A stretch of 64,000 bases of DNA from a bacterium. Its GTDB lineage: Bacteria > Sysuimicrobiota > Sysuimicrobiia > Sysuimicrobiales > Segetimicrobiaceae. The position numbers were made by a program, and so were the translations under genes. This document shows positions 1-17,189 of the stretch, piece by piece. The stretch spans positions 92,117-156,116 of the forward strand of contig DATGHU010000007.1 of the NCBI GenBank assembly GCA_035307765.1, given 5' to 3'. Under the pieces are notes generated by a model. The model was not told the DNA's origin, did not search any database, and saw only the letters and a program-made list of their open reading frames with translations. Within the stretch, counting starts at the first letter, position 1. The number at the start of each line of letters is the position of its first letter.

Positions 1-2
1 AC

Positions 3-860
3 CGTGGGGGAGTCGAGCCGATCGGCCGCGACCTACTCGCTTCCATCCTGGGCCTGGCTTCTGCTGTGTCATGGGGGGCCGGCGATTTCGTGGGAGGGCT
101 GACCGCCCGGCGGACACATGTGCTGGGAGTCGTGGTCATCTCGCAAGCGGCTGGCGTGCTCTTTCTGGTCTCCCTGGCCCTCATCCGTACCGAACCGCTC
201 CCGACCATCGCCGACCTGATCTGGGCGAGCGCGGCCGGACTATCGGGCGGGGTGGGGCTGACCGCCCTATATCGGGCTCTGGCGGTTGGCCAGATGGGGG
301 TCGCGGCCCCGATCACGGCAGTCGTTGCCGCCGCCCTCCCGGTGCTCTATGGGGTCCTGTCCGCAGGAATCCCCGGGACCCCCAGGCTCGTGGGATTCGC
401 CATGGCGATCGCGGGAATTTGGCGTATTTCCCAGGGGGGCGGGCGGGTAGACCGGTTCGATGGGATCGGCGCTGCGGTGCTGGCCGGCGTTGGCTTCGGC
501 GCGTTCTTGATCTTGATCCATCAGGTCGGCGCGCCCGCCGTGTTCTGGCCGCTGGCCGCGGCTAAGGCCACCTCGGTGGCCCTCATGTCCGCCACCGCCC
601 TGCTCGGCCGCCGCCGGTGGGTCCCGACGATGTCGTTGATCCCCGTGTTGGCCCTGGCCGGGGGATTGGATGTCGGCGGCAACGTTTTCTTCTTGCTGGC
701 CTCTCAGGTCGGCCGCCTCGACGTGTCTGCCGTCCTCTCTTCGCTCTACCCGGCCACCACGGTCCTCCTGGCGCGCGGGATGCTCAAGGAGCACATCACC
801 CGGGCACAGGCGATTGGGATGGCGGCCGTGCTGATCGCCATCCCGCTGATCGCAGCCTGA
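3..860 (+). CDS. EamA/DMT-superfamily transporter, 5' end outside window
   Basis: Integral membrane transporter of the drug/metabolite (EamA) superfamily, probably exporting or importing a small metabolite across the inner membrane; substrate unknown. The protein is a chain of hydrophobic helices in two EamA-like halves. The reading frame is open right up to the window edge: residues encoded upstream of the GTG at 66 (RDLLASILGLASAV) read as the first half of a typical EamA first helix. The true start is therefore very likely before base 1, and a GTG start at 66 would cut the first helix. It is followed after 88 bases by a decarboxylase on the same strand. Confidence 0.8.
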   Translation, partial: RGGVEPIGRDLLASILGLASAVSWGAGDFVGGLTARRTHVLGVVVISQAAGVLFLVSLALIRTEPLPTIADLIWASAAGLSGGVGLTALYRALAVGQMGVAAPITAVVAAALPVLYGVLSAGIPGTPRLVGFAMAIAGIWRISQGGGRVDRFDGIGAAVLAGVGFGAFLILIHQVGAPAVFWPLAAAKATSVALMSATALLGRRRWVPTMSLIPVLALAGGLDVGGNVFFLLASQVGRLDVSAVLSSLYPATTVLLARGMLKEHITRAQAIGMAAVLIAIPLIAA

Positions 861-948
861 GCACTGGCGCCGCCCGACGCCGCGCGATACGCTACAACAA
901 GCGGGGCCCGCGGGCCGCCGCCCGAAGGTCCGTGAGAGGAGGAGATCC

Positions 949-2481
949 GTGGGGGCCAGCGAGGGATTGCCATCGTCAGGATGTGGGGAGAGGTCCTCAT
1001 CTCGACTCTCCTTCCGATCGGAGACGAACTCGCGATGGGAGTGGTCCCCGGAGGAGATCAGGCACGTCGGCCACCGGGTGGTGGATCTCATCGCCGAACA
1101 CTTGAGCACCCTGGCAGAGCGGCCGGTGTTCCGGCCGCTTCCCGAGGATCTCGCCAGGGAGTATGTCGAGGACGCCGCTCCGCTGGAGGGCGCAGAGCCC
1201 TTGGCGATCCTCGACGAGTTTGCCGCCCGGATCGAGCCGTATCCCTTCGGCAACGGCCACCCGCGCTTCTACGGCTGGGTCAACTCACCCCCGGCCGTCA
1301 TGGGGATCTTCGCCGAAGCCCTGGCGGCGGCGATGAATCCCAGTTGCGCCGGTGGAAATCACGCGGCCATCTACGTGGAGCGGCTCGTGCTGAATTGGTT
1401 CAAGTCGATGCTGGGTTTCCCGCGGGAGAGCATGGGCCTGCTGGTCAGCGGAGGCTCGATGGCCACACTCACCGCCTTGGCGGTCGCCCGCCACGCCAAG
1501 GCGGGTGCGAACGTCCGGGCGCGGGGCGTCCAGGGCCGAACCTCCCCGCTCACCGTCTACGCGGGCGACGAGGGGCACAGCTGCGTGCGCAAGGCCGTCG
1601 AACTATTGGGGATCGGAAGCGACTACCTGCGCATCATTCCGTCGGATGCCCACTTCCGCATGCGGGTCCCGGACCTGGAAGCCGCGATCGAGCGCGATCT
1701 GCGCGACCACGCCCAACCCATCGCCGTGGTCGCCAGCGCCGGCACCGTCAACAGCGGGGCGATCGACCCTCTTGACGACCTCGCCGGGGTATGCCGGCGG
1801 TACGGCCTGTGGCTTCACGTGGACGGGGCGTACGGCGCGCCGGCCATCCTCACCGGGCGGTACCGCGAGGCGCTGGCGCCGATCGCGCTGGCGGACAGTA
1901 TCGCCGTGGACCCCCACAAATGGATGTACGTGCCGGTGGAGGCCGGCCTGGTGCTCGTGCGGGACGCGGCCGTGATGCGCGACGCGTTCAGCCTGATCCC
2001 TCCCTACCTTAGAACCGACGGCAGTCCCGCCGGCGTGGGAGGCCCCCCGTGGTTCAGCGAGTTCGGTTTCCAGCAGACCCGAGGGTTCCGGGCCCTCAAG
2101 GTTTGGATGGCCCTCAAACACCACGGGCTCAGGGGCTATGCCGAGGCGATCGAGCGGGACATCGCCCTCGCCGAGCATCTCGCCGCCAGGGTGGAGGCGA
2201 CCCCCACCTTGGAACTGTCAGCTCCTCCAGGCCTCAGCATCGTCTGTTTCCGGTACGCTCCGTCCCCCCTGCGTGGGGACGATCCCCGACTCGACGCCGT
2301 CAACAGAGCGGTGTTGGAGGAGATCCAGTTGGGCGGCCAGGCTTTTCTCTCCAGCACCACGCTGGGCGGCCGGTTCGTGCTTCGGGCCTGCATCGTGAAT
2401 CCCCGGGCCTCGCCCGAGGACCTCGATGCCCTGGTGGACCTCGTCCAGGCGGCGGGGGCCCGGGCGGCGCGCACGCTGTAA
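949..2481 (+). CDS. Group II pyridoxal-dependent decarboxylase (aromatic-L-amino-acid decarboxylase family)
   Basis: PLP enzyme of the aromatic amino acid / glutamate decarboxylase family, predicted to decarboxylate an L-amino acid to the amine in the cytoplasm. 510 residues, a normal family length. The VDPHKW motif gives the Schiff-base lysine at about residue 324; HVDGAYG near residue 287 is the usual cofactor-binding Asp/Ala segment. The GTG start at 949 has a strong purine-rich site (GAGAGGAGGAG, 934-944) five bases upstream, so it is preferred although the first 25 residues are not family-like. Substrate (tyrosine, tryptophan, DOPA, other) cannot be read from the sequence. Confidence 0.88.
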   Translation: MGASEGLPSSGCGERSSSRLSFRSETNSRWEWSPEEIRHVGHRVVDLIAEHLSTLAERPVFRPLPEDLAREYVEDAAPLEGAEPLAILDEFAARIEPYPFGNGHPRFYGWVNSPPAVMGIFAEALAAAMNPSCAGGNHAAIYVERLVLNWFKSMLGFPRESMGLLVSGGSMATLTALAVARHAKAGANVRARGVQGRTSPLTVYAGDEGHSCVRKAVELLGIGSDYLRIIPSDAHFRMRVPDLEAAIERDLRDHAQPIAVVASAGTVNSGAIDPLDDLAGVCRRYGLWLHVDGAYGAPAILTGRYREALAPIALADSIAVDPHKWMYVPVEAGLVLVRDAAVMRDAFSLIPPYLRTDGSPAGVGGPPWFSEFGFQQTRGFRALKVWMALKHHGLRGYAEAIERDIALAEHLAARVEATPTLELSAPPGLSIVCFRYAPSPLRGDDPRLDAVNRAVLEEIQLGGQAFLSSTTLGGRFVLRACIVNPRASPEDLDALVDLVQAAGARAARTL

Positions 2482-2488
2482 CCGGTGT

Positions 2489-2516
2489 GCGTCAGGCGGT
2501 GACGCGGGTCTTCTTT
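2489..2516 (+). terminator. Possible weak terminator after the decarboxylase
   Basis: A six-base-pair stem (GCGTCA 2489-2494 with TGACGC 2500-2505) followed by a T-rich run (2509-2516) lies just after the decarboxylase stop and reaches the end of the convergent M24 gene. The stem is short and the T-run is interrupted. Confidence 0.4.
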
Positions 2517-3855
2517 ACCGACGCCCGCCCGCGCCGCTGCCTTCGTGCCGGGCGCCGGCGGCCACTCGGTCCTTGGGGGTCCCCGACGGACGGTTCAGGT
2601 TGGACTGCGTCTCCCGCGTGGTGGGGAGCGGCCCGTCGACGGTCCAGTAACGGGTCCCCGCCACGAGGAGCTGTTCCGCCGGGAAGCGGGTGATCACTTC
2701 GCATCCGTCTTTGGTCACGACCAGCTGTTCCTCGATCCGCGCCGCGGACCAACCATCTGAGGCGGGCCAGAACGTTTCCAGCGCGAAGACCATCCCCTCC
2801 TCTATCACCTCGGGGTGATCCAGTGAGACCAACCGGCTGAAGATTGGCTTTTCCCAGATGGAGAGCCCGACCCCGTGCCCGTACTGGAGCGCGAACGCCG
2901 CCTCTTCGTTGGCGAACCCGAACTCCTTCGCCTTGGGCCAAACCCTGACCACGTCGGCCGTGGTGACCCCCGGCCGAATCAGACTCAACGCGCTGTCCAG
3001 ATAGTCCCGGCACCGTTTGTAGGCGTCCACCATCGCGGGGGAGGCGCTGCCGACACAAAAGGTCCGGTAGTAGCAGGTGCGATAGCCATTGTAACTGTGC
3101 AGGATGTCGAAGTACGCCGGATCCCCGACGTGCTCCGAGCCCAGATCGTAGAGCACCTTACTCACCAAGCCAACGCACTCGTTCTCGCGCATTCCGGGGC
3201 GGAGGGCGCGAAAGAGCTCCTCGTATGCCGCGTCCACCATCATCACCGCGGTGGTGGTCAGGGTGATCTCATCCTGGGTCTTGATCTTCCGGGCTTCCTG
3301 CATCAGCGCCTCGGCCATCAACCACATGTTCTGCGCAGCCAACCCTCCGGCCAGCATGTGCGTCGCCTCGCCGTGGATGTGCGGCCCGCCCTTGGACGGG
3401 TCGGCGATGAGCGCGATCGCGGCCGGCACCCCACTCCACTCGGGATGCTCGCCGCGGCTCTGCTTGTACTCGGGGAACCAATGACCGGAGATCCGAACCG
3501 ATTCCTCCGCGAGATCCTGCAGGCGGGCGAGGTGTGCGCGGTCGCGCAGGGTCACGTAGCGAATCGGCTGGAAGTTGCCCGCGGAGGGCGCCCAGCGTGC
3601 CGCCCGCAACACCTCGAAGAGATATTCCGCGGGAATGGGGCGCTCGACGAACTGGGTGTTCCGGCACAGCCCGGTCATCGTGGTCCGCAGGGCGGGGAGC
3701 GGAAACGCCGCGTCACGCTCAACCAGAAGCTCGGGCGGCGCCGGAGCGCCGTACCGCTCGGATGAGACCAGATCGCGAAGCGGCAAGCGGGTGAGGGAAA
3801 TTTCCAGGATTTTCGGGTTGATGCGCTTGAGATCGGGAGAGCCCACCCCCATCAC
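2515..3855 (-). CDS. Nitroreductase-M24 (creatinase-like) chimeric protein
   Basis: 446 residues. Residues 1-47 complete the C-terminus of the frameshifted nitroreductase upstream. Residues about 60-184 are a second nitroreductase-type FMN domain (ARWAPSAGNFQPIRYVTL) that stops at AAQNMWLMAEAL, before the usual C-terminal part. Residues about 185-410 are an M24 'pita-bread' domain beginning at MQEARKIKTQDEI and lacking the N-terminal creatinase domain. Expected metal ligands: Asp250 present, second Asp replaced by Cys261 (GYRTCYYRTF), His327, Glu360 and Glu375/376 present; the second conserved His is Trp (SIWEKP). A creatinase- or ectoine-hydrolase-like C-N hydrolase is more likely than an aminopeptidase. 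The junction near base 3300 could be a genuine fusion, a deletion scar or a misassembly. Confidence 0.65.
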   Translation of the reverse strand: MMGVGSPDLKRINPKILEISLTRLPLRDLVSSERYGAPAPPELLVERDAAFPLPALRTTMTGLCRNTQFVERPIPAEYLFEVLRAARWAPSAGNFQPIRYVTLRDRAHLARLQDLAEESVRISGHWFPEYKQSRGEHPEWSGVPAAIALIADPSKGGPHIHGEATHMLAGGLAAQNMWLMAEALMQEARKIKTQDEITLTTTAVMMVDAAYEELFRALRPGMRENECVGLVSKVLYDLGSEHVGDPAYFDILHSYNGYRTCYYRTFCVGSASPAMVDAYKRCRDYLDSALSLIRPGVTTADVVRVWPKAKEFGFANEEAAFALQYGHGVGLSIWEKPIFSRLVSLDHPEVIEEGMVFALETFWPASDGWSAARIEEQLVVTKDGCEVITRFPAEQLLVAGTRYWTVDGPLPTTRETQSNLNRPSGTPKDRVAAGARHEGSGAGGRR

Positions 3856-4381
3856 CCCGATCGTGTCCCACTCGAATGGAATGTCCAGGAGCTGCTTTCA
3901 GCTTCTCGTGGGAGAAGTGCGTGTACATCACGAGTGCCATCCCGTGACATCGAGCCGCCAGCGCCAGGTGTTCGGTCGCCGCGGCCATCGCGATCTGGTG
4001 GTTCCAGGTGTTGTGGATGTGGCGGGGTCCTAGGACCGAATCCGCACAGACGGCAATACAAAAAGGGGTCGAGGCCCACGTCTGCACATACCCCCGCAGC
4101 CCCGACGGCTTGAACAGCCCCTCCCAGTGATTGGAGATGTCCTTCGACTCGCGGGTCAGCCGCTGGAGTTTCCGCTTGAGCGCGGGGTCATCCAACACGA
4201 TGAATCGCACGGGGTAGCGGTCGCCCGCGGCCGGCGCGCAGCGTGCCGCGTCGAGGATCGAGGCACGCGTGTCAGCGCCGACGGGGCGCCGGTGAAAGGC
4301 GCGCAGGGTCCGGCGCGTGAGCAGACCCCTGCGCACATCCGGAGAAGGGCTCAGGTCAAGGGGCGGGACCGCAACGGCCAT
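3719..4381 (-). pseudogene. Nitroreductase family protein, frameshifted near 3902
   Basis: FMN-dependent nitroreductase-fold protein. Residues from RRTLRAFHRRPV through HFSHEKLK follow the family pattern, including the AARCAPAAGDRYPVRF cofactor segment. After LK the frame becomes non-family sequence running antisense over the next gene. Removing one A from the AAA at about 3902 restores LKQLLDIPFEWDTIGVMGVG and runs straight into the start of the chimeric nitroreductase-M24 frame, which has exactly the missing C-terminus. The real gene thus spans 4381 to about 3715 or continues into the next domain. A one-base indel in a homopolymer may be a sequencing error or a real mutation. Confidence 0.7.
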
Positions 4382-4483
4382 CCCAGTGCATTTGTGTGCC
4401 TCACCGAGAACCCCTTCCGCCGCCCGCCCCCCACGGCGGACGCCGGAGCGGGGAGCGGGCTGCCGGCTCAGCGCGGCGCGGCA

Positions 4484-5083
4484 TTACGGAGCGGGTGCGG
4501 TCAGGGCGTCGGCGACCGGCGCGACGGCCGGCACCAGGGCATCGTGCAGGACCCGCTGGGTGAGGAGGGAACGGGTGGTGCCGAGCGCGGACGCCGCCTG
4601 CCGGGTCTCGGCCACGCGGCGTCCTTGTGCCGCATCAAACACCTGGATCACAAGGTTGACCTCGGCGTTCGGCGGGCCCTCCCCGTCGGGGGGGATCGCC
4701 ATGCCGCCGCCGCCGGCATCGACGGACAGCAGCGGGATCCACCCCAAAATCAGCGCATCGGCCCCTACCGAGCGGGCCAGCACACCCAGGCGATCGTAAT
4801 GGAGGACGTCCACATCTTGCCACCGCAGCGACCCCTCCGCCCGTTCCATCGTCCCGCGAGGGATCACGGTGAACCGCCCGTTCGCCGCACGCGCGAGCTG
4901 CGCGGAGAGATCGTCGGCCGCGAAGCGCTCGGGAAAGACGCCGACAAACACCCCCAGCGGAGTGGGGGAGTAGAAATCCACCACCCCCACCGATTTGACG
5001 CCGGGGGCGGCGCCCCCGGGTTCTCCCAACAGGATGACCGCGCTCACGAGCACTGCCAGTGCCACAGCGCTTTTCCGTCTCAT
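4484..5083 (-). CDS. Secreted protein with CsgG/TolB-N-like fold (hypothetical)
   Basis: 199 residues with a clear signal peptide (MRRKSAVALAVLVSAVILLG, cleavage likely around GGAAPG). The mature part begins with a beta-strand VGVVDFYSP followed by an Asp/Leu-rich helix and FTVIPRGTM. This is the layout of periplasmic CsgG/TolB-N-like proteins, where a strand, a helix ending in a 'GRFxVxxR' element and an alpha/beta core repeat. A glycine-rich loop (VDAGGGGMAIPPDG) is unusual. The function is unknown; the resemblance is by pattern only. It is a single gene, 102 bases upstream in map terms of the nitroreductase start and divergent from the ABC exporter. Confidence 0.6.
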   Translation of the reverse strand: MRRKSAVALAVLVSAVILLGEPGGAAPGVKSVGVVDFYSPTPLGVFVGVFPERFAADDLSAQLARAANGRFTVIPRGTMERAEGSLRWQDVDVLHYDRLGVLARSVGADALILGWIPLLSVDAGGGGMAIPPDGEGPPNAEVNLVIQVFDAAQGRRVAETRQAASALGTTRSLLTQRVLHDALVPAVAPVADALTAPAP

Positions 5084-7032: not shown

Positions 7033-8870
7033 GCGTCCATTTTCAAGAAGACGACATTCTCGGAAAGACCTACGATGCCAGGCTGATCGGGCGACTGCTG
7101 GGATACGTGCGCCCGTATCGCGGGGTGACCGGGCTGGCCGTGGCGCTCCTCCTCCTGGCCTCGTTCACCGATCTGGTGGGCCCCTACCTGTACCGGATCG
7201 CCATCGATCGGTACATCGTGCCGGGGGCAGCGGGCGGAGCCAGGGCGGGAGATCTGCGCGGGGTGGCGCAGATCGCCGTCCTCTACCTGGGCGTCCTCGG
7301 GATCGGGTTCATCGCCCGGTGGCTCCAGAGCTACCTGATGCAGGTCGTCGGGCAGCGGGCAATGTACGACCTGCGGATGCACATCTTCCGGCACGTGCAG
7401 GAGCTGCCCATCGGGTTCTTCGCCCGGACGCCCGTGGGCCGACTGCTCACCCGCGTGACGAACGACGTCGACGCCCTCAACGAGCTGATTACGTCGGGGG
7501 TCGTGGCGATCTTCGGCGATATCGCCACGCTGTTCGGGATCATGGCGGTGATGCTGTGGATGGACTGGCGGTTGGCGCTCGTGGTGTTCTCTGTGCTGCC
7601 GCTGGTCTACCTGATCACCGAGCAGTTCCGCTTGCGGGCGAGAGACGCCTACCGGGCCGTGCGCACCCGCCTCGCGCGAATCAACGCCTACCTCAACGAA
7701 CAGTTCATGGGGGTGACGGTCGTCCAGCTCTTCACGCACGAACGGGAGAGCCTGCGCAAGTTTGAGGCCCTGAACACCGATTACCTGGACGCGAGCCTCT
7801 CCGCGACGCGCAACTTCTCGCAGTTCTACCCGGCGATCCAGGTCGTGGGGACGATCGCCGTCGCCCTGCTGCTGTGGTTTGGAGGCGGACAGGCCGTCCG
7901 GCATGCCGTGACGCTGGGGGTCCTCGTCGCCGCGCTCCAGTACGCCGACCGCTTTTTCGAGCCGATCCGGGACATCTCGGACAAGTTCAACATCTTCCAG
8001 GCGGCGATGGCATCGTCCGAACGCATCTTCCGGCTGGTCGACGAACCCGTCACCCTGCAGGACCCCCCGGACCCCGTGGAGCTTCCCCGGGTGGAGGGAC
8101 GGATCGAGTTCCGGGATGTCTGGTTCGCCTACGAAGAGGACGAGGGCTGGGTCTTGCGGGGGGTGTCCTTCACCATCGAGCCCGGGCAGACCGTCGCCGT
8201 CGTCGGGCACACCGGGGCCGGGAAAACCTCCATCATCAACCTGCTGACGCGTTTCCACGATCCGCAGCGGGGACAGGTGCGCATCGATAACGTCGACGTG
8301 CGCCGGGTGCGCCAGCGTGACCTGCGCCGACGCATCGGCCTCGTGCTGCAGGACGTGTTCCTCTTTTCCGGGACGATCGCGGACAACATCCGGTTGGGCA
8401 ACGCCGCGATCACCGATGCGCAGATCCGCGAGGCCGCCCGCTACGTCGGGGCCGACCGGTTCATCGACGGACTCCCGCAGGGCTACGGCACAGAGGTACA
8501 GGAGCGCGGCGCCCGCCTCTCCGTCGGGCAGAAGCAGCTGATCGCGTTTGCCCGGGCGATCGCCCAAAACCCGGAGATCGTGCTGGTGCTCGACGAGGCG
8601 ACGAGCAGCGTGGACGCGGACACCGAGCAGTTGATCCAGCAGGCGCTGGCCACACTCCTCCGCGGACGGACCTCGATCATCATCGCCCACCGGCTGTCGA
8701 CGATCCAGCACGCCGACCGGATCATCGTGCTGCACAAGGGGCGGATCGCCGAGGAGGGGACCCACCGCGAACTGCTCGCCCGGGGCGGGATCTACGCCAA
8801 ACTCTACCAGCTGCAGTATAAGGATCAGGAACGGACCGAATCGATCATCGCCGACCCGCGCGCGACCTGA
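7029..8870 (+). CDS. ABC exporter half-transporter, catalytic partner
   Basis: 613-residue ABC exporter half, translationally coupled to the first half by a GTGA overlap (7029-7032). Six-helix membrane domain, then a nucleotide-binding domain with Walker A GHTGAGKTS, Walker B VLVLDEATSS with catalytic Glu523, and a non-canonical signature LSVGQ. In the head-to-tail dimer this altered signature faces the Asp-substituted Walker B of the partner, so both deviations fall in the same ATP site. This is the expected arrangement for an asymmetric heterodimeric multidrug/lipid exporter. Confidence 0.92.
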   Translation: MSVHFQEDDILGKTYDARLIGRLLGYVRPYRGVTGLAVALLLLASFTDLVGPYLYRIAIDRYIVPGAAGGARAGDLRGVAQIAVLYLGVLGIGFIARWLQSYLMQVVGQRAMYDLRMHIFRHVQELPIGFFARTPVGRLLTRVTNDVDALNELITSGVVAIFGDIATLFGIMAVMLWMDWRLALVVFSVLPLVYLITEQFRLRARDAYRAVRTRLARINAYLNEQFMGVTVVQLFTHERESLRKFEALNTDYLDASLSATRNFSQFYPAIQVVGTIAVALLLWFGGGQAVRHAVTLGVLVAALQYADRFFEPIRDISDKFNIFQAAMASSERIFRLVDEPVTLQDPPDPVELPRVEGRIEFRDVWFAYEEDEGWVLRGVSFTIEPGQTVAVVGHTGAGKTSIINLLTRFHDPQRGQVRIDNVDVRRVRQRDLRRRIGLVLQDVFLFSGTIADNIRLGNAAITDAQIREAARYVGADRFIDGLPQGYGTEVQERGARLSVGQKQLIAFARAIAQNPEIVLVLDEATSSVDADTEQLIQQALATLLRGRTSIIIAHRLSTIQHADRIIVLHKGRIAEEGTHRELLARGGIYAKLYQLQYKDQERTESIIADPRAT

Positions 8871-9031
8871 TCCTCGGGGTTCCGGCGCCGCGCGGAGAGG
8901 CCTCGTCCCGCCCCGAGGCGAATGAGCACGTATTCGAGCCCGCCGGGTCCACTTGGCCGCAGGATGCCGGGCTGCCGCCTCTCAGGACCCGCAGACCGGC
9001 ACCCGCGACGGGATTGGAGGGATGGTCCACC

Positions 9032-9382
9032 ATGGCGACAAGCCCGCTCGCCGACAAGAAGTGTGTTCCCTGCCTGGGAGGCGTCCCGCCCCTGACGGCG
9101 GCGCAGATCGCGCCGCTTCTGGCGCAACTCGACGGCTGGCAGGTCGAGGAGCACAAAAAGCTTGTGAAGCCGTTCAAATTTCGGAACTTCGTTGAGGCCG
9201 TGGATTTCGTCAACGCCGTGACCCCGGTCGCGGAGGCGGAACAGCATCACCCCGATCTCTACGTCCGCTGGGGGGAAGTCCGGGCCTACCTCTGGACCCA
9301 CAAGATCGACGGCCTCACCGAAAGTGACTTTGTGATGGCCGCGAAGATCGACCGCGTGTACACCGCCCGGCGGCCGCGGTAG
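9032..9382 (+). CDS. Pterin-4a-carbinolamine dehydratase
   Basis: Dehydrates 4a-hydroxytetrahydrobiopterin (pterin recycling); in bacteria without aromatic hydroxylases the family can also support molybdopterin cofactor function. The AEQHHPD motif with the catalytic histidines, and the family's THKIDGLTESDF end, are present. The ATG at 9032 is chosen over an upstream TTG at 9014 because a GGAGGG site lies just before it and the protein then has the usual length (116 residues). It is followed by an FAH-family gene after 25 bases. No phenylalanine hydroxylase is seen here. The molybdenum enzyme at 31769-35429 makes a cofactor-related role possible, as inference only. Confidence 0.88.
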   Translation: MATSPLADKKCVPCLGGVPPLTAAQIAPLLAQLDGWQVEEHKKLVKPFKFRNFVEAVDFVNAVTPVAEAEQHHPDLYVRWGEVRAYLWTHKIDGLTESDFVMAAKIDRVYTARRPR

Positions 9383-15587: not shown

Positions 15588-17189
15588 TCACTCCACCCAG
15601 GCCCCGATCAGACCTCGCTCCGTGTCGTCGTACGACACGTAGTATCCGTTCAGCCGCCGGCGCACGATCTGATATTTCATCGGGTTGACCAGCGGCATCG
15701 CCGGCCACTCCGTCAGCACGATCTCCTGCAGCCGCCGGTAAATCTGGAGCCGCTTCGCCCGATCGGTGGTGCGCAGGCCCTCGTAGAACAGGTCCGTCAA
15801 CTCCTTGTTGTTGTACCCGGCCTGATACCACGCCTTGTACACGTCGCCCGCGGGATCGAAATCGGCGAGGAACCCGCTGGGGTCTCCGCGCATCCCCCGG
15901 CCGGTGGACTGCCACTCAAACTCTCCCCGGCCGTTGTTCCGGGCAAAGGTGCCGATCTCGAGCGGCTGCACCGTCACGTTGACGTTGATCAGCTTCAACT
16001 GGTCCTTGATCACCTCGGCGTTCTGCGTATAATCGATCGGATGCGCGATCGACTGCACCGTCACCGAGAAGCCGTTCGCGAATCCGGCCTCCGCCATCAA
16101 CTGCTTGGCCCGGGGGATGTCGTAGCGCTCCCACTTGAGCTTGAGGGCATCCTGAGAGAGGGGCCACGCCCCGTAGCCCTGCGGGATCTTGCTCGTGTAC
16201 ACGGCGTCGCCGCCGTACACTTTCTCGATGATCTCCTGACGGTTGATCGCCGCGCTTACCGCCTGGCGAACTTTGACGTTGTCCCACGGCTTGCCGTCGT
16301 TCTTCAGGGTGAATTCCAGCTCCCGGAAGACGGCGGTCAACCCCTTCAAAGTCTCCAGCGACGGGTCGCCCCGAAGGGTGGCGGCCGAGTCGGCGGTCAC
16401 GGATGCCCCATCGATCGCCCCGGAACGCAGCGCGGCCACCCGGGCTTGCTCGTCCTGCAGGACCTTCATGGTGATCTCATCGACGTACGGGAGCGTGGGC
16501 CGCCAGTAATCCTTGAACCGGCTCAAGCGCGTATGGTCGTTGGGAATGTACTCTTCCAACTTGAACGGCCCGGTCCCGTCGGCGTGGGTGCGCAGATCCA
16601 TCCGGTCGTACAGCCCCTTGGGGATGATCCACGAGTATCGTCCCCAGGCCAGATAGCCCAGCATCGTGGCGTCGGGTTGGGTCATGGCCACGCGCACCGT
16701 GTAGTTGTCCACGACCTCGACGCCGGCAATCTTCGGATAGTAGCTCTGCGTGACCCCGGGGGGCGGGGGGGTCTTCTGCAGGTCGAGCGAGTACTTGACG
16801 TCGGCGGCGTCGAGCGCCTTGCCGCTGTGGAACTTCACCCCCTTGCGCAGCCGGAAGATGTAGGTCTTGTCGTCGGGAATCTCCCACGACTCGGCCAGCG
16901 CCGGCTTGAGGCTCAACTGGCGGTCCCACCCCAACAGCGACTCGTAGACGAGCGACGTGATCTCGAAGTTCGATCCGTTGACGGCGCCAAAGGGGATCGT
17001 CGCCACCGGATCCGACGTCATCCCCCAGGTGACCTTGCCCCCCCGCTTCGGCGCGCTCGCCGCGTGCGCGCCTCCGACGACGCCGAGCGACACCCCTCCC
17101 GCCCCGGCCAGTGCCGCGGCCCCGATCAGGAAATCCCGCCGGCTGAGAACCCCACACCCCATCGTGCCTCGGATCCTCGTCGCGTCCAT
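15588..17189 (-). CDS. Peptide-type ABC substrate-binding protein (SBP family 5), Tat signal
   Basis: 533-residue periplasmic or surface binding protein, cluster C (SBP_5). The N-terminus has a twin-arginine signal (SRRDFLIGAAALAGAGG, residues 16-32), so it is probably exported folded by Tat. Family landmarks are KRGGKVTWGMTSDP, LVYESLLGWD, and FRLRKGVKFHSGKALDAADVKYS. It supplies DppB and DppC downstream. The ligand cannot be told from sequence; SBP_5 proteins bind peptides but also nickel, opines, glutathione or sugars. Confidence 0.92.
   Translation of the reverse strand: MDATRIRGTMGCGVLSRRDFLIGAAALAGAGGVSLGVVGGAHAASAPKRGGKVTWGMTSDPVATIPFGAVNGSNFEITSLVYESLLGWDRQLSLKPALAESWEIPDDKTYIFRLRKGVKFHSGKALDAADVKYSLDLQKTPPPPGVTQSYYPKIAGVEVVDNYTVRVAMTQPDATMLGYLAWGRYSWIIPKGLYDRMDLRTHADGTGPFKLEEYIPNDHTRLSRFKDYWRPTLPYVDEITMKVLQDEQARVAALRSGAIDGASVTADSAATLRGDPSLETLKGLTAVFRELEFTLKNDGKPWDNVKVRQAVSAAINRQEIIEKVYGGDAVYTSKIPQGYGAWPLSQDALKLKWERYDIPRAKQLMAEAGFANGFSVTVQSIAHPIDYTQNAEVIKDQLKLINVNVTVQPLEIGTFARNNGRGEFEWQSTGRGMRGDPSGFLADFDPAGDVYKAWYQAGYNNKELTDLFYEGLRTTDRAKRLQIYRRLQEIVLTEWPAMPLVNPMKYQIVRRRLNGYYVSYDDTERGLIGAWVE

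Follow-up and report, generated by a model that had tools for sequence, protein, structure and literature searches.

Each flavin site of a nitroreductase dimer takes its RR[ST]xR motif from one subunit and its PSxxNxQP motif from the other. Acg proteins are monomers that mimic the nitroreductase homodimer and have a single active site (PMC10404671). Members of this Acg/flavin-dependent oxidase (FDO) subgroup, such as MsAcg and TyzC, are single-chain mimics of a dimer with one flavin site, and from its sequence we would expect the same of the tandem nitroreductase described here. Bacterial genomes also contain deletion-fusion pseudogenes, in which a 3'-truncated gene is joined to a truncated downstream gene. 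The locus that we analyse likewise consists of two such pieces, carries a frameshift and an internal deletion in addition, and lies in a variable segment with conserved sequence on either side. Unlike other deletion-fusion pseudogenes, it keeps everything past the frameshift in one open frame.

The locus is found on the minus strand of the window (the whole stretch of 64,000 nucleotides analysed) and runs from 4381 to 2515. It begins with an ATG at 4381 and a first nitroreductase domain (NTR1), which is interrupted by a one-base frameshift; the C-terminus of NTR1, a second nitroreductase domain (NTR2) and an incomplete M24 domain, of creatinase/prolidase fold, follow in one frame (Table 1). 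Pfam finds PF00881 twice and PF00557 once, in agreement with the first-pass annotation, which had described two nitroreductase domains and an M24 domain in line. Our hypothesis, which we consider very probable, is that this is a recent double pseudogene made by a deletion that fused two unrelated genes, a second deletion and a frameshift. It is supported by the existence of intact, separate copies of both parents in other bacteria, which make the locus almost certainly a fresh dead gene pair and not a new three-domain enzyme.

Table 1. Coordinates of the locus, its surroundings in the window and the intact tandem nitroreductases.
Feature	Coordinates	Strand	Basis
NTR1, first domain of tandem nitroreductase, original frame up to frameshift	3899..4381	-	PF00881, E 6e-15
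Frameshift, AAA run, one base more than intact relative L068	3896..3898	-	L068 alignment, three-frame translation
NTR1 C-terminus and linker to NTR2, next frame	3655..3897	-	Continuous alignment with intact tandem proteins L068 and L092
NTR2, lacking last 62 residues of tandem protein	3304..3654	-	PF00881, E 1e-15, residues 68-184 of 446-aa ORF
Fusion junction GAGGCGCTG	3304..3312	-	DNA alignments of both parents overlap at this site
M24 remnant, first piece, G007 residues 160-222	3127..3303	-	94% identity
Internal 75-bp (25-aa) in-frame deletion in M24 domain	3126..3127	-	Alignment with 24 orthologues; DNA matches break here
M24 remnant, second piece, G007 residues 248-448, to stop codon	2515..3126	-	90% identity, PF00557
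Apparently intact pyridoxal-dependent decarboxylase, inside variable segment	949..2481	+	PF00282, profile 6-374 of 375
Conserved hypothetical gene, right flank of variable segment	4484..5083	-	Homologues G001:C83 8535-9122 and G002:C73
Intact tandem nitroreductase, 429 aa, single ORF, complete end	L068:5509-6798	+	Both nitroreductase domains
Intact tandem nitroreductase G101, 434 aa	L092:6452-7756	-	Phylum search

A pattern scan for the nitroreductase portion, in which each of 84,980 species was represented by a single genome, gave one close relative, in the Candidatus Rokuibacteriota MAG AR17 (L068). When 95 genomes of the Rokuibacteriota phylum were searched, a second intact copy was found (G101, L092), 64% identical. 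The two proteins have the same NTR1-linker-NTR2 order, at 64% identity, and the same complementary motif losses as the window. They are single open frames with complete ends and without an M24 domain, whereas the copy in the window has a frameshift and is cut short, and no M24 gene is present near either of them within the DNA examined. Since both carry the two domains in a single ORF with a complete end, we read NTR1 and NTR2 as one natural tandem-domain protein, not as the products of separate genes, and one that is broken twice in the window.

The first break is visible in the DNA alignment, where the window has GCTGAAAGCAG and L068 has GCTGAAGCAG, that is AAA against AA. From 3897 the protein resumes in the next frame with NTR1's own C-terminus, KQLLDIPFEWDTIGV... 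A one-base slip ahead of this C-terminus had been proposed in the first-pass annotation, correctly as to the change of frame, but the AAA run is at 3898-3896 and not at 3902. In its two frames the window matches L068 residues 9-166 and 163-367, with residues 368-429 absent; the nitroreductase parts are 64% identical, and the alignment is far beyond chance. Other genomes of the window's phylum yielded no close relatives of the nitroreductase part, and the 60 related genomes searched with the 446-aa ORF gave no strong match to its residues 1-180 comparable to those of its M24 part. Searches of plasmids gave one weak match, and the intact tandem protein had no match there.

NTR1 has retained RRTxR in all three copies but no longer has the N-x-Q of PSxxNxQP, while NTR2 has lost RR[ST]xR and kept WAPSAGNFQP. 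A local search pairs the N-terminal part of 4dn2, a single-domain nitroreductase, with NTR1 and the C-terminal part with NTR2. Because the two motifs come from opposite subunits in the dimers and each half of the tandem protein keeps one of them, a single chain with one flavin site is expected. The intact protein is thus probably a single-chain mimic of a nitroreductase dimer, with its one flavin site formed by the RRTxR of NTR1 and the PSAGNFQP of NTR2; a complementary loss of this type would fit a monomer in the manner of Acg. There are no Acg chains among the solved-structure sequence matches of the tandem nitroreductase, even when a profile is used. Its closest NCBIfam model is BluB, followed by F420 FbiB and weak matches to SagB/Rv1355c, all below cut-off. 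AlphaFold2, run on the tandem protein with a three-row alignment, returned a pLDDT of 33.

The M24 part is incomplete at its own N-terminus, as its Pfam match (PF00557, E 3e-29) covers profile positions 74-208 only. NTR2 ends at about 3304, and the first-pass annotation was thus right that a nitroreductase stops abruptly near 3300 where an N-terminally incomplete M24 domain starts. When the 446-aa ORF was compared with 60 related genomes, each matching relative gave two matches, to residues 181-244 and 243-446, separated by about 70 bases of the relative's DNA. Intact, free-standing M24 orthologues are present in 23 of 42 relatives of the phylum, and one further copy is cut by a contig end; most are 445-458 aa long, with lengths of 429-431 aa in three genomes. 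Relative to the orthologue G007 (451 aa, L039 9353-10705), to which the M24 part is 89% identical, far beyond chance, the window has kept residues 160-222 and 248-448 and has lost residues 1-159, the N-terminal domain, and 223-247. The second, internal loss had been overlooked in the first-pass annotation and was found through alignment of the orthologues. In G007 the 25 missing residues are EGVNAISGERCNPHPHVYTDRVLRP and include a PHPH histidine motif, which aligns with KPHGH of the prolidase 5cdl. We take this stretch to be the site of the conserved active-site histidine in the M24 superfamily.

The remnant lacks features of a functional protein of its orthologous group: orthologues of the phylum (G006, G007, G009 and G011), which are 86-89% identical over the retained parts, have both the N-terminal domain and the PHPH segment, while the window copy has neither. 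At the columns that are invariant among the orthologues, however, it has zero substitutions, the junction excepted, which indicates that the damage is either recent or not real. In a phylogenetic tree the remnant clusters with these same four orthologues (98/95 support), apart from the same-genus copies G001-G004, a position consistent with a foreign or differently inherited cargo.

As for the M24 family itself, the nearest solved relatives of the orthologues are DddP (4s00 and 4b28) and prolidase 5cdl, although at 127 bits the orthologues fall far short of the 600-bit cut-off for the DddP family. Both the orthologues (L010-L033) and the window (2515-3126) have a Cys (RTCYYRT) in place of the second metal-ligand Asp of prolidase (NSDMTRT), and the usual two-metal binding may therefore not hold for the family. 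In two genomes, G002 (L043 9749-13127) and G021 (L045 6829-10155), the M24 gene is directly 3' of two genes resembling 2-oxoacid dehydrogenase E1 alpha and beta, a possible hint at its role. Elsewhere in the genome of the window, a short partial M24 match in a 133-aa open frame (G000:C34:158320-158529) is perhaps a second remnant.

Nitroreductase homology stops and M24 homology starts within GAGGCGCTG, at 3312-3304, where the relatives of the two parents have about 5-8 bp in common. The junction fits a deletion at a short shared sequence, with microhomology as its mechanism, if the ancestral sequence resembled that of these relatives. We propose that the segment carried a tandem nitroreductase gene, which probably arrived by horizontal transfer, together with an M24 gene oriented the same way, and that the two genes would have been near each other before the deletion; the two parents were seen side by side in no genome compared. 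The deletion would have removed the last 62 nitroreductase codons, any DNA between the two genes and the first 159 M24 codons, joining the remainder in frame. A separate 75-bp deletion at 3127/3126 would have taken out the M24 histidine motif, and the gain of one base at 3898-3896 would have shifted NTR1 into another frame. The order of events is conjectural, as the second deletion and the base gain may have come before or after the fusion. The lesions (a frameshift and the loss of 62, 159 and 25 aa) disable conserved parts, and most likely neither enzyme would work. That two genes had been fused by a deletion was among the possibilities raised in the first-pass annotation, and the separate, intact homologues now found for the tandem nitroreductase and for the M24 protein bear it out.

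Another issue is whether the lesions are present in the organism at all. It could be that a local assembly or consensus error created the fusion, the 75-bp gap and the extra A, an explanation that we regard as unlikely though not negligible. The sequence comes from a draft assembly in 51 contigs, consensus errors commonly add an A to a short run, and the M24 remnant is otherwise pristine. However, such an error needs three lesions of different kinds in 1.3 kb, while the adjoining 30 kb, with about 19 genes, show none: between 5 and 35 kb, about 19 orthologues are full length or nearly so and in a single frame when compared with G002. These intact syntenic genes rule out wholesale assembly indels on the contig, and an apparent gap at 13.7-14.6 kb proved to be an intact permease gene missed by a simple gene caller. 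The missing nitroreductase and M24 pieces were found on no other contig of the genome, which also excludes their relocation within it, and 5-8 bp of overlap would not suffice for a join by the usual assemblers.

To the left of 4.48 kb the window is not colinear with same-genus genomes. Nevertheless, one contig of a same-genus genome (G001:C83) carries both flanks, the homologue of 4484-5083 occupying 8535-9122 and the left flank beginning at 17027, and holds a different cargo of 7.9 kb between them. This rules out a chimeric contig at 4.4 kb and identifies the locus as part of a variable segment. Together with the undamaged neighbours, the presence of both flanks on one contig makes an assembly error less likely. 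The variable segment comprises positions 1-4484 of the window and about 4.7 kb in total between its conserved flanks, the left one being a single-strand DNA-binding protein gene upstream of the window. About 10 kb to the left of the window, an open frame (L046:2-301) resembles a fragment of an IS256-type transposase.

If the lesions are real, the open frame past the frameshift invites the question of whether selection has kept a functional chimera, either of NTR2 and M24 or of all three domains. The 446-aa ORF is open, its codon use looks coding and no decay is seen in the M24 remnant. The in-frame deletions and the unsubstituted M24 columns are indeed somewhat unexpected in a gene undergoing decay, and they fit very recent damage, retained function or error. 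However, as the chance that both deletions keep the frame is about 1/9, the open frame gives weak support for a function. NTR1 lies in a different frame, NTR2 is short of its final 62 residues, and the M24 part has neither its N-terminal domain nor the PHPH motif; moreover, no homologue in the 60 relatives has the fusion, and the parents are free-standing elsewhere. We thus find a selected chimera of any domain composition very improbable, and equally so that the in-frame NTR2-M24 chimera is expressed and selected, for example as a non-catalytic binding protein, soon after the birth of a gene fusion. Programmed frameshifting at 3898-3896, yielding a full NTR1-NTR2-M24 protein from one gene, would account for an open downstream frame that resumes exactly at the NTR1 break, but it is highly improbable, as both intact homologues read through without a shift, three As in a row are not a known slippery signal, and NTR2 would still be without its end.

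A true three-domain enzyme, which the first-pass annotation had also considered, finds no support, given the intact separate homologues, the frameshift and the truncation of both NTR2 and M24. The nitroreductase-nitroreductase-M24 order occurs in none of the 60 related genomes and beside neither of the two intact tandem nitroreductases. Separate homologues with intact ends, named in the first-pass annotation as the observation that would speak against a genuine fusion, were looked for and are present for both parents.

The fusion itself, under the double-pseudogene reading, is ordinary, although an annotation pipeline could record such a deletion-made pseudogene as a multidomain enzyme. More interesting than the fusion is the tandem nitroreductase from which it was made: a rare protein with two intact copies, each in a genome of one other phylum, and with opposite losses of the flavin motifs in its halves, suggesting a single-chain flavoenzyme with one site.
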